Assembly (NCBI GenBank): GCA_015066845.1
Contig: SVNO01000018.1
Location: forward strand, 1 to 35,640
Direction of reading: 5' to 3'
Length of the DNA stretch: 35,640 nt
From: Ruminococcus sp.
GTDB lineage: Bacteria > Bacillota > Clostridia > Oscillospirales > Ruminococcaceae
Position 1 is the stretch's first letter. Every line of letters starts with the position of its first letter. The notes below the pieces were generated by a model. The model did no database searches. It had not been told where the DNA came from and saw only the letters and a list, made by a program, of their open reading frames with translations. Made by a program: the position numbers and the translations under genes. Below, one piece after another: positions 32,472 to 34,718 of the stretch.

Positions 32472-32975
32472 TTATGCAGCCTCGCCATCCTTGTCCACAA
32501 CTGCCTGCAGCAGAGCAGCCAGCTTCTGAATCGGACCCTGCAGGGAACCAACGAGCTGTGCCAGCAGAACATCTCTGGACGGAATCTTGGACAGAGCCTT
32601 GATCTTCTCAGAATCAAAGTACTCACCCTCAACGCAGCCTGCCTTCAGAACGAAGTTTTCATGCTTTTCAGCGAATTCGCCCAGAATTCTTGCAGGTGCT
32701 GTCTGGTCATCGTTGGAAATTGCGATTGCTGTTGTACCGTTGAGTACATCATCAAAGCACTCCATACCGATGTTGTGGAACGCAAACTTCAGCATAGAGT
32801 TCTTCTCAACGAAGTAGCTAACATTTGCTTCACGCAGCTCACGACGCAGCTTTGTATCGTCTGCAACTGTGATACCCTTGTAGTCAACGAGAACGCAGGA
32901 TACGCTGTTCTTCAGCAGTTCGGTCAGTTCTTCTACTCTTGCCTTCTTGGATTCCAGAACCTTTGCACTCGGCAT
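32472..32975 (-). CDS. rplJ: 50S ribosomal protein L10
   Basis: A 167-residue L10, the base of the L7/L12 stalk. The N-terminal rRNA-binding domain (SSVSCVLVDYKGITVADDTKLRRELREANVSYFVEKN pattern) and the C-terminal L7/L12-binding helix (LAALLQAVVDKDGEAA) are complete. GGAGGTGAA precedes the start. The gene is led by an attenuated leader and a strong promoter of its own. Confidence 0.97.
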   Translation of the reverse strand: MPSAKVLESKKARVEELTELLKNSVSCVLVDYKGITVADDTKLRRELREANVSYFVEKNSMLKFAFHNIGMECFDDVLNGTTAIAISNDDQTAPARILGEFAEKHENFVLKAGCVEGEYFDSEKIKALSKIPSRDVLLAQLVGSLQGPIQKLAALLQAVVDKDGEAA

Positions 32976-33142
32976 TTACATTCACCTCCGATTGAAATAT
33001 CAGCTTTCGCTGTACATCGTATCGGGAATACAAAAAACTCCCTTCGCGTACCAAAGCACACAAAGAGAGGGGGTAAATCTTACCACTTGCACTCCTCGGT
33101 TGGGTTTACGGCTTGCGCCACCAACTGTCTTTAGAATACGAC
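32976..33142 (-). ncRNA. L10 leader with attenuator
   Basis: The 5' UTR of rplJ contains the pattern typical of Firmicutes L10 leaders: AGACAGTTGGTGGCG ... AACCCAACCGAGGAG, bound by the L10-L12 complex. Downstream, ACACAAAGAGAG and CTCCCTTCGCGT (plus coordinates 33058-33069 and 33038-33049) form a 12-pair stem, with G-U pairs, followed by UUUUUU at 33037-33032. This is a terminator that would shut rplJL off when L10 is in excess. Confidence 0.8.
33032..33069 (-). terminator. Attenuator terminator in the rplJ leader
   Basis: A 12-pair stem with loop at 33050-33057 and a six-U tail, lying about 55 bases before the rplJ start. Pairing includes several G-U pairs. Confidence 0.75.
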
Positions 33143-33148
33143 TTTATT

Positions 33149-33177
33149 AGTATAGCACATTATCTTTGGTTTGTCAA
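33149..33177 (-). promoter_or_regulatory. rplJL promoter
   Basis: On the minus strand a perfect TTGACA (33172-33177), 17 bases, then TATACT (33149-33154). It is a textbook housekeeping promoter. Bases 33178-33239 upstream are A+T-rich and otherwise featureless. Confidence 0.88.
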
Positions 33178-33239
33178 GGGTTTTTTTCAGATTTTCTGAA
33201 ATTTCTTTTTTTATGCGGTAGGTTGGTGGATTTTGCATG

Positions 33240-33294
33240 TAGAAAATGCTGTTTTCTGGGGGTAGTGCTCTTGAAATTGCCCCTCCCCCAATGA
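33240..33294 (+). repeat. Repeat B', internally deleted B
   Basis: The start aligns with the start of repeat B (AGAAAATGCTGTTTTCT palindrome, then TGGGGGTAGTGCTC...AATTGCCCC), and the end aligns with B's end (CCCCTCCCCCAA). About 80 middle bases of B are missing. Repeat A follows directly. Confidence 0.6.
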
Positions 33295-33472
33295 GCAATG
33301 TCATCAACTTTAGGAAAGTTGTGCAAAGATTGTCCCACCCCCTTCCCCCTCCCAAAGGGAGGGGGATTATGGGAGGCGGCTGCGCCGCCTCCACCGCCCA
33401 AGGGGCTGCGCCCCTTGGAACCCCGCTTGGGGGCTATCGCTCCCTTGCCCCCGCTTAAGTTGATGACATTGC
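33295..33472 (+). mobile_element. Repeat A, right copy, with target duplication
   Basis: A 178-bp element with 16-base exact inverted ends GCAATGTCATCAACTT / AAGTTGATGACATTGC. It is flanked on both sides by CCCAATGA (33287-33294 and 33473-33480), the expected scar of transposition. The middle is made of G+C-rich hairpins (GGAGGCGGCTGCGCCGCCTCC type and CAAGGGGCTGCGCCCCTTG). There is no ORF of a transposase. The family of the mobilising transposase is not assigned. Confidence 0.8.
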
Positions 33473-33488
33473 CCCAATGAGGGAGGGA

Positions 33489-33549
33489 CTATCGCTCCGC
33501 GTTTGATGCAGGGCTTTTGACAAACTGAATCCCCCTTACAAAAGGGGGA
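33489..33549 (+). repeat. Repeat C, copy 1
   Basis: A 61-base unit matching 33742-33803 in direct orientation. It begins CTATCGCTCCGCGTTTGAT and ends with the hairpin CCCCCTTACAAAAGGGGG. It is the other half of the unit interrupted by repeat A. Confidence 0.75.
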
Positions 33550-33551
33550 AT

Positions 33552-33697
33552 CAGCTTGTAGAAAAAGTCTTTTTCTGGGGTTAGCACCCCTGTAACTGCC
33601 CCCACAGCCGCAGTTAAATCCTATTGCGGCATACCGTCGCCCTCAAGCAGCATCCTGCCTCAGGCTCAGGCACCCAACCCCTCCCCCAACGGGGGAG
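33552..33697 (+). repeat. Repeat B, right full copy
   Basis: A full copy, inverted relative to 167-307, with the palindrome AGAAAAAGTCTTTTTCT at 33560-33576 and a terminal CCCTCCCCCAACGGGGGAGGG hairpin. It is followed by a small hairpin TCGGGGACTTCGTCCCCGA at 33708-33726 and then repeat C copy 2. Confidence 0.75.
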
Positions 33698-33741
33698 GGG
33701 CTATTTTTCGGGGACTTCGTCCCCGAACCCCTTGTGCGGAG

Positions 33742-33803
33742 CTATCGCTACGCATTTGATTTTAGGTTTTTCGACAGACTGAATCCCCCTTACAAAAGGG
33801 GGA
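33742..33803 (+). repeat. Repeat C, copy 2
   Basis: A 62-base direct repeat of 33489-33549, again ending in CCCCCTTACAAAAGGGGG. Its hairpin ends seven bases from the tyrA stop codon. It has no U run on the tyrA strand, so it is at most a weak terminator but could protect the mRNA 3' end. Confidence 0.75.
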
Positions 33804-33809
33804 TTTGCA

Positions 33810-34682
33810 CTATGATTCCATCATCTCAATCACGGATGGGGCATTTCTCCGGCGTTGGAGGTTGTCCTCCTTGCGCTGTCTGCCGTCAGCAATCAGCCCG
33901 TACAGGGCTTCACGGTCGCCGTTGGCAAGAACTTCCCGATATTGGTTGAGATTTTCAAGCAGAATATCAAGCTCCATCAGCAGGCTTTCACGGTTCTGCA
34001 TAAAAAGCATCGTCCACATATCCTCGTTCATGGTCGCAATGCGCGTCATATCGTGGAAGCTGCCGCCGGAAAAACCGCTTTCCAGCGCAATGACAGGGCT
34101 TTTGACATACGCACTCGACACCACATGCGCAAGCTGTGAGGTGTAGGCGATCATCCGGTCATGCAGCTGGGGCGTGGTAATGACAAACCGCCGGAATCCT
34201 ATCTGGTGCGCGAAATTCTTCACCTGCGCCGTCACTGCCTTCGGTGTGTCCGGCAGGGGCGTGAGGATGAAATTCGCGCCCTGAAACAGATTCTCGTCAG
34301 ACGCTTCATAACCGAATCGCTCCTTGCCTGCCATCGGATGAGCCGCAAGGTAATGCACATCATGCGCGGCGCAGAGTTTTCCCATCGTTTCGGGAATATC
34401 CCCCTTAACACCGGCGACATCCGTCACAATCGTGCCGGCAGTCATGGACGATACATGCGCGGCAACCCACTGGGGAATTGCCTCCGGATAGAGGGATACT
34501 ACAATCAGGTCAAAGCCGCTGCAATCTTCCTCCACAATGCCGTCAATCACATGTTCCTGCATTGCTTTTTCCAGAATTTCGGCATTTTTATCACATCCAT
34601 AAACACTGTGCTCTGTAAAGGTATGCAGTGCCTTGCAGACAGAACCGCCAATCAGTCCAAGTCCGACAACAAGAATTCTCAT
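33810..34682 (-). CDS. tyrA: Prephenate dehydrogenase
   Basis: A 290-residue NAD-dependent TyrA, oxidising prephenate to 4-hydroxyphenylpyruvate for tyrosine synthesis. It opens MRILVVGLGLIGGSV, the dinucleotide-binding loop. HPMAGKERFGYEAS and TTPQLHDRMIAYTSQLAHVVSSA are the conserved substrate-site stretches. Start ATG 34682 is supported by GGAGGAG upstream; ATG 34694 lacks a site. No ACT domain is fused. No other aromatic gene is adjacent. The gene ends against repeat C. Confidence 0.93.
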   Translation of the reverse strand: MRILVVGLGLIGGSVCKALHTFTEHSVYGCDKNAEILEKAMQEHVIDGIVEEDCSGFDLIVVSLYPEAIPQWVAAHVSSMTAGTIVTDVAGVKGDIPETMGKLCAAHDVHYLAAHPMAGKERFGYEASDENLFQGANFILTPLPDTPKAVTAQVKNFAHQIGFRRFVITTPQLHDRMIAYTSQLAHVVSSAYVKSPVIALESGFSGGSFHDMTRIATMNEDMWTMLFMQNRESLLMELDILLENLNQYREVLANGDREALYGLIADGRQRKEDNLQRRRNAPSVIEMMES

Positions 34683-34718
34683 ACTCTCCTCCAAATGACG
34701 GCGAATGCCGTGCCATAC

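Follow-up and report, generated by a model that had tools for sequence, protein, structure and literature searches.

Introduction

DDE transposases join the 3′ ends of their element to two target phosphates, one on each strand, and the stagger between these positions gives rise to the target duplication, the length of which is normally a near-fixed property of the transposase. That IS1182-family elements target hairpins is already known. Palindromic targets in this family are treated in a review cited by PMC4923244, and the same paper, in the parts consulted, describes IS1272/TnSha1 as inserting with partial deletion of hairpins, several of which are confirmed terminators. In the pathway proposed for IS1272, the hairpin is lost through joining at its 3′ feet and no duplication is formed, and duplication of the whole hairpin by 5′-foot joining is drawn as a hypothetical route (pathway b of Fig. 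13, PMC5678879); the parts of PMC5678879 examined contain no example of pathway b. The IS4 subgroup is listed with the end signature -AATR--------WTW and direct repeats of 10–13 bp (PMC2266710, Table 1).

Here we analyse a window of 35,640 nucleotides, contig C78 of a Ruminococcus sp. draft genome (G000; 2.2 Mb in 106 contigs). We consider it probable that the window holds two nested mobile elements: B-C, which duplicates whole hairpins upon insertion, and A, which has entered a hairpin inside B-C.

Results

Architecture of the nested elements

The right-hand part of the window contains two B-C units, the first of which is interrupted by A, and a second, truncated copy of A lies at the contig start:

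1..166, minus strand: left copy of A, cut by the contig start
167..307, minus strand: B-C sequence adjoining the left copy of A
~33236..33527, plus strand: B-C unit 1, host of A, a putative non-autonomous IS1182-type element; right end TTTTGACAAACTG present
33281..33287, plus strand: 5′ arm (CCCTCCC) of the B-C internal hairpin interrupted by A
33286..33295, plus strand: left 10-bp target duplication of A, CCCCAATGAG, from comparison of copies
33296..33471, unstranded: element A, 176 bp, a putative non-autonomous IS4-type element (MITE) with ends CAATGTCATCAACTT / AAGTTGATGACATTG
33472..33481, plus strand: right 10-bp target duplication of A, CCCCAATGAG, from comparison of copies
33481..33487, plus strand: 3′ arm (GGGAGGG) of the B-C internal hairpin interrupted by A
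33528..33551, plus strand: left copy of the duplicated hairpin, AATCCCCCTTACAAAAGGGGGAAT
33552..33781, plus strand: B-C unit 2, 230 bp, CAGCTTGTAGAAAAA ... TTTTTCGACAGACTG, flanked by both hairpin copies
33679..33699, plus strand: unbroken CCCTCCC CCAACGG GGGAGGG hairpin of unit 2, a paralogous empty site for A
33782..33805, plus strand: right copy of the duplicated hairpin, AATCCCCCTTACAAAAGGGGGATT, directly 3′ of the prephenate dehydrogenase gene
33810-34694, minus strand: prephenate dehydrogenase gene (PDH_N, 87 bits), its 3′ end adjoining the right hairpin copy

A preliminary description of this DNA had placed A at 33295-33472 with an 8-bp duplication. The exact inverted ends and the identical flanking duplicates are as described; comparison of copies moves the boundaries to 33296-33471, and the duplication is 10 bp long. 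The apparent 8 bp arose because the target starts with C and ends with G, so that at either end one target base reads as part of the inverted repeat; the boundary was set by copies with other outer target bases, e.g. L006 (TTAGTATAAG). The reconstructed pre-insertion site reads CTTGAAATTGCCCCTCCCCCAATGAG followed by GGAGGGACTATCGCT. It contains the CCCTCCC/GGGAGGG hairpin, like unit 2 at 33679-33699, but, contrary to what had been suggested, its layout differs from that of the intact join at 33680-33750: in unit 2 some 41 extra bases, including a second hairpin, separate the GGGAGGG arm from CTATCGCT.

The nesting itself is real, with A lying inside the loop of a CCCTCCC/GGGAGGG hairpin within a B-C unit, and the proposed order – B-C first, A later – is supported by a comparison of copies: among the 30 B-C loci shown, the hairpin is unbroken in 24 (17 with a CCAAYGG loop and seven with another loop), holds A in two, and is not reached by the remaining four, which end before it. 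The left copy of A likewise adjoins a B repeat within the same hairpin, as had been noticed, its left flank being off the contig.

The two hairpin copies around unit 2 are 24 bp long and differ at one position, and the right side of unit 1 adjoins the left copy. The left end of unit 1 is degenerate, its start approximate, and no hairpin is seen outside it. This layout fits the order of a terminator, then unit 1, then unit 2 entering the hairpin copy, with A entering unit 1 and the insertions of A and unit 2 left unordered relative to each other. The region 3′ of the prephenate dehydrogenase gene held no recognisable orthologous empty site in any of 29 relatives; L371 carries its own B-C-type end at this place, and in several relatives a terminator-like hairpin stands there with no element. 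On its other side, the B-C array is bordered by a ribosomal protein L10 leader (RF00557, 50.4 bits; 33022-33152, minus strand) upstream of rplJ (32472-32975), and thus sits between this leader and the prephenate dehydrogenase gene.

B-C is flanked by copies of a whole hairpin

What the preliminary description overlooked is that B-C is itself a mobile element, and one with the more unusual target behaviour. Searching its own genome with unit 2 yielded at least 64 matches (40 of 194 first-look candidates scored), and many sites show the same element with one hairpin repeated on both sides, the sequence of the hairpin varying from site to site. The B-C end, CAGYYTGTCRAAAAA, is present at both ends of the element as terminal inverted repeats; at up to one mismatch it has 222 matches in the genome, 111 on each strand, and the reversed control has none. 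Exact B-C ends occur in 33 of 38 genomes of the genus, where genomes with one to three ends may owe them to chance (the reversed control gives one match in each of nine genomes) and only the ten with at least ten exact ends were used; the richest are G000 (149 exact ends), G008 (99) and G003 (37). Some copies of A and B-C in G000 lie within 200 bases of contig ends. As repeats at contig ends, A and B-C appear to break the assembly, and the copy numbers given for this genome are therefore probably lower bounds.

Pairing of B-C ends was confined to fetched loci, many of them chosen by likeness to unit 2, and the following statistics describe 53 pairs, a subset of the copies. Adjacent direct repeats flank 39 of the 53 pairs, 22 of the 33 from the genome of the window and 17 of the 20 from other genomes of the genus, as compared to means of 0.00 of 33 and 0.00 of 20 with shuffled flanks. 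The repeats are 20–36 bp long, and 25 of the 39 are exact. Stem-loop replacement of the IS1272 type is not what these sites show: 37 of the 39 repeats from the 53 pairs are hairpins, in which the median number of bases left unpaired outside the stem is 0 or 1, while random windows score as hairpins in 16 of 220 and 8 of 170 cases. The exceptions are 11 own-genome pairs and three pairs elsewhere that lack an adjacent repeat, and two repeats that are not hairpins by the score used.

The length of the repeat follows that of the hairpin. Measured in the right flank alone, where a hairpin was found for 38 of the 39 repeats, hairpin length correlates with repeat length (Spearman 0.90) and agrees with it within 3 nt in 35 of 38 cases; in 34 of the 38 the gap between element and hairpin is 0 or 1 nt. 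Outer-edge tracts accompany the repeats – T at the right copy in 33 of 39, A at the left copy in 32, and at least one of the two in all 39 – on a T-tract test that 9.6% of background 10-mers pass, and by their sequence the target hairpins of B-C seem to resemble intrinsic terminators. Counting ends rather than repeats, and leaving out two pairs with short flanks, a hairpin abuts the left end in 42 and the right end in 44 of 51 pairs; both ends are abutted in 36 pairs, at least one in 50, and neither in L016 only. Among random points, 195 of 5347 abut a hairpin. A matching repeat is missing from three of the 36 pairs with hairpins at both ends: the hairpins of L045 are alike but for one base in length, and those of L247 and L256 are different.

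Two other origins of the paired hairpins have to be weighed. The element could insert beside terminators by a fixed short stagger, with gene conversion or recombination supplying the second hairpin afterwards. That ends can indeed be reshuffled is shown by a few elements whose two hairpins differ (L247 and L256, and L358 and L411 among the plasmid elements below); we nevertheless regard such an origin as very unlikely, given how many repeats are exact, how closely the hairpins abut the element, and that the repeats end near the foot of the stem, whereas with a fixed stagger the repeats would not lengthen with the hairpin. Still less credible, to the point of being nearly negligible, is that the hairpins are terminal modules of B-C itself that are carried along, so that the two copies are simply the ends of the element. 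The presence of a hairpin at one end or more of 50 of the 51 pairs is what such modules would give; against them, hairpin sequence varies by site while the element ends are constant, and the ISEfa7 empty site described below has a single copy of the hairpin that flanks the filled site.

B-C units also differ in length. Compared with the short form, five long units (L218, L219, L226, L231 and L235) are extended by about 61 or 73 bases, which are placed at the tip of its GGGGACTTCGTCCCC hairpin and hold a further hairpin (CTCCCCACCCCGTGGGGAG), a gain or loss of hairpin modules.

Several IS1182-type relatives with a transposase duplicate whole hairpins

Two elements in other genomes of the genus carry both a transposase gene and hairpin repeats. 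L312 (G021) is 1473 bp long, has B-C-type ends (left end CAGCCTGTCAAAAAA) and a perfect 33-bp hairpin repeat, and encodes a transposase that matches NF033551 (IS1182) with 357 bits at a cut-off of 270, with Pfam domains DUF772 and DDE_Tnp_1. L344 (G011; 1532 bp), the transposase gene of which is split across two frames, is flanked by a perfect 31-bp hairpin repeat. With a hairpin target, shared terminal inverted repeats and a transposase-bearing element with the same ends (L312) all found, B-C is probably a non-autonomous relative of IS1182-family insertion sequences. An IS1182 transposase match is present in eight of the 38 genus genomes and none was found in G000, the window's own, which is why we infer, rather than observe, the source of B-C movement. 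A 1540-bp span on C47 that might have been an autonomous copy turned out to be a 162-bp copy plus an unrelated end, and no IS1182 relative was present in the viral contigs searched.

Plasmids provide a broader sample, with 1775 records containing an IS1182 relative. We took 18 in a first round (ten from the list of best matches and eight from a spread list, environmental hosts preferred) and then three more. Exact whole-hairpin repeats of 19–35 bp flank eight of the first 18 elements, seven of the eight having no unpaired base outside the stem, as compared to 0 of 306 in a cross-pair control. The other ten are L358, L362, L363 and seven proteobacterial elements, in which no such repeat was seen and the ends of which are undefined in this comparison. 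In a tree of 23 transposases, the ten repeat-bearing rows (eight from plasmids and two from the genus) fall within one group of 16 with support of 100/99, next to which one long branch, L400, joins. One record of the group is labelled Arthrobacter (L362) and the rest belong to Firmicutes or Fusobacteriota by label or genus.

Every row of this group of 16 has a hairpin abutting one end or both. Six of them (L358, L362, L363, L409, L410 and L411) lack the repeat, each with a hairpin at one recognisable end or more; L363 and L410 have the left end CAGCCTGTCGAAAAA, and in L358 and L411 the hairpin at one end differs from that at the other, L411 having a short left stem (6). Such unlike ends would be expected if copies had recombined with one another. 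Possession of the repeat as the mark of a single clade was considered and rejected: it requires six changes on the tree, since the repeat-less rows are interspersed among the repeat-bearing ones.

An empty site is available for one of these elements. The left flank of L364, a copy of ISEfa7, was found in 89 plasmid records, four of which were read. Two, L405 and L406, hold AAAAAAGGATTGAACATTATGTTCAATCCTTTTTT once and match the predicted pre-insertion sequence at 129 of 129 bases; the other two are uninformative for the prediction, L407 being a diverged, insertion-free form of the site with one hairpin, and L408 having a different insertion at the site, annotated with an ISL3-family transposase. 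Flank searches for L396 and L365 returned no other record with most of the query. In L408, an E. faecium plasmid, the ISL3-annotated element thus occupies the very terminator-like hairpin that ISEfa7 uses in another plasmid.

Element A: family and spread

The 16-bp end of A has 62 matches in its own genome at up to two mismatches and none for the reversed control, far beyond chance. A tighter pattern (up to one mismatch) gives 59 matches there and also occurs in two of 40 further genomes from the set of relatives, and an exact match is present in six of 394 sampled genomes of the order, own genome included. In named genome contigs we found at least 114 stretches with A-type ends, mostly labelled Clostridia or Ruminococcus, and none in the viral contigs searched. 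A-type ends were also seen in contigs labelled Methanoflexus, Methanovirga, Dependentiae, Parachlamydiaceae and Fibrobacter (L115, L129, L135, L173 and L203), which may reflect wide transfer, chance or binning error.

Pairs of A ends with both flanks mostly have a duplication (up to one mismatch) in the own genome, 14 of 18, in line with the preliminary description, and 18 of 34 have one elsewhere, where the 16 pairs without a duplication may include false pairs; shuffled flanks give 0.8%. Of the 32 sites with a duplication, 28 have one of 10 bp, seven of these with one mismatch.

A transposase gene with the ends of A, which the preliminary description had proposed to look for, was found in other genomes. 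L149, from Acidaminobacter sp. JC074, is about 1.89 kb long, with the same ends, a 12-bp duplication and a 449-aa DDE transposase that matches NF033592 (IS4) with 170 bits at a cut-off of 115; L200, from [Ruminococcus] torques, is about 1.5 kb long, encodes a 435-aa DDE transposase, has one end with two mismatches and shows no clear duplication. By eye, the Y(2)R(3)E(6)K motif is present in the transposase translations of elements with A-type ends, and the right end of A, C AATG TCATCAAC TTA, fits the signature of the IS4 subgroup. On these sequence features A is best described as a putative transposase-less relative of the IS4 family, IS4 subgroup; both A and B-C are short, with inverted ends and many copies, and may be MITEs moved in trans. 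We infer the source of A, since a profile search detected no DDE_Tnp_1 match in the window's genome. When searched against the 394 genomes of the order, the L200 transposase had weak matches in three only. ISAs1 was considered as a source and rejected: although eight of the 38 genomes of the genus have ISAs1-type genes, A-type ends (up to three mismatches) were absent from all 16 loci fetched.

A also inserts into A, as one end in L010 (~1596; G000:C34:12867) is flanked by the interior of another copy, its CCCCCTCCCTTTGG hairpin. In a related species, four A-type ends (AATGTCAACAACTTTAG) in one orientation and 147–148 bp apart form a tandem array (G003:C7:10142-10601).

A favours symmetric targets

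Among 57 distinct flanks of A ends (fetched loci of the own genome, leaving out three artefact rows at contig starts), 20 match B-C. In 33 reconstructed empty sites dyad symmetry is highest at the centre of the duplication, and ten sites have seven or more of ten positions complementary, as compared to 3.4% of 15,982 random positions (Mann-Whitney p 7e-5) and 4.4% of 10,375 positions matched for their outer C and G (p 1e-3). A strict stem test, passed by six of 32 sites, gives a weaker result. Column counts of 28 sites with 10-bp duplications read CCCY, four free bases, GGGG.

These data suggest that A favours symmetric sequence of the kind supplied by hairpins such as those in B-C. Since the sites share a CCCY-N4-GGGG consensus, the symmetry may be one of sequence rather than of structure. 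An earlier suggestion that A prefers hairpin tips is partly supported and is too strong as a general statement, because 23 of the 33 sites are not strong hairpins. Were A instead to read hairpin structure at the loop and not sequence, with duplication of the loop (pathway c of Fig. 13, PMC5678879), the excess of strong dyad symmetry over random positions and the 20 flanks in B-C would be accounted for; the common motif at sites that are mostly not strongly palindromic, and duplications of 10 bp at 28 of 32 sites regardless of the loop, make us doubt this account. We hence prefer a symmetric sequence target for A.

Discussion

The reading of the window as two nested elements is supported directly by the ends, the duplications, the identity of duplication and hairpin, the autonomous relatives and one ISEfa7 empty site. 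To explain them we propose that an IS1182-type DDE transposase, acting in trans, would move B-C and would recognise a hairpin, usually one bordered by A and T tracts and presumably acting as a terminator. Both B-C ends would be joined at the 5′ foot of the hairpin, one per strand, such that the stagger equals the hairpin; repair would then copy the entire stem-loop, leaving a complete hairpin on each side, and hairpin length would set duplication length. Were the hairpin extruded as a cruciform, its two 5′ feet would meet at the four-way junction regardless of stem length. Because the feet would face each other for any stem, the duplication could be variable and yet defined by structure, with one active-site geometry producing duplications of any length. 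A, as a non-autonomous member of the IS4 subgroup, would insert with a 10-bp duplication at symmetric CCCY-N4-GGGG targets; B-C internal hairpins supply such targets, and hence the nesting of A.

Our view of the step that sets B-C apart is more guarded. We lean, somewhat better than evenly, towards the IS1182 clade reading DNA shape: the transposase would dock on the extruded cruciform and use both 5′ feet at the four-way junction as the points of joining, so that whichever hairpin was present would be duplicated. It is possible, if less probable, that the transposase acts on the hairpin in single-stranded DNA, on the lagging strand or in a transcription bubble, and not on a double-stranded cruciform. 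The end product would be identical, and intrinsic terminators are sites of strand separation, which suits such a route; joining both element ends to opposite strands is, on the other hand, simplest on a cruciform.

In the behaviour described here, the length of the duplication tracks the secondary structure of the target, which makes recognition of cruciform DNA by a DDE transposase in cells directly testable, using stems of chosen length. If our interpretation is true, B-C is a natural case of the 5′-foot pathway that has only been drawn for IS1272, and a mobile element can land on terminators and yet leave a complete terminator stem on each side. A complete hairpin with an outer A or T tract left on either side suggests how copies could build up at gene ends, and hairpin duplication explains an abundant class of repeats in this genus. 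Two main insertion-sequence reviews reportedly list variable repeats and palindromic targets for IS1182, and whole-hairpin duplication may be known in part from these. In our search, outside which lay subscription papers, the main insertion-sequence reviews and ISfinder, we found no published report of whole-hairpin duplication by IS1182, nor one of its being the regular outcome of a clade, together with the large non-autonomous families in this genus.

Close to B-C in target behaviour are ISEfa7 and the IS1182 elements of Firmicutes and Fusobacteriota plasmids, which have ends near CAGNNTGTNGACAAA, duplicate whole hairpins and group with L312 and L344; they differ in carrying a transposase gene, which B-C lacks. 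For A, a comparable target preference is that of IS231A (IS4 family) for symmetric GGG-N5-CCC: the target is symmetric in both, while the subgroup and the motif are different. With the IS4 subgroup, as presented in the part of PMC2266710 consulted, A shares the end signature and the 10–13 bp range of repeats, and L149 and L200 carry the transposase; A differs in its 176 bp, the lack of a transposase and the symmetric CCCY-N4-GGGG target. Insertion sequences of REP palindromes are likewise mobile elements that enter extragenic palindromes, those described in the part of PMC1525189 consulted using one repeat family, whereas the hairpins used by B-C are unrelated in sequence. Finally, IS1272/TnSha1, the relative studied in most depth, shares with B-C the family name of the transposase and a target that is a hairpin and not a primary sequence, but, as far as described in the parts of PMC5678879 and PMC4923244 consulted, it replaces or partly deletes the hairpin without a duplication, whereas B-C duplicates the hairpin whole.
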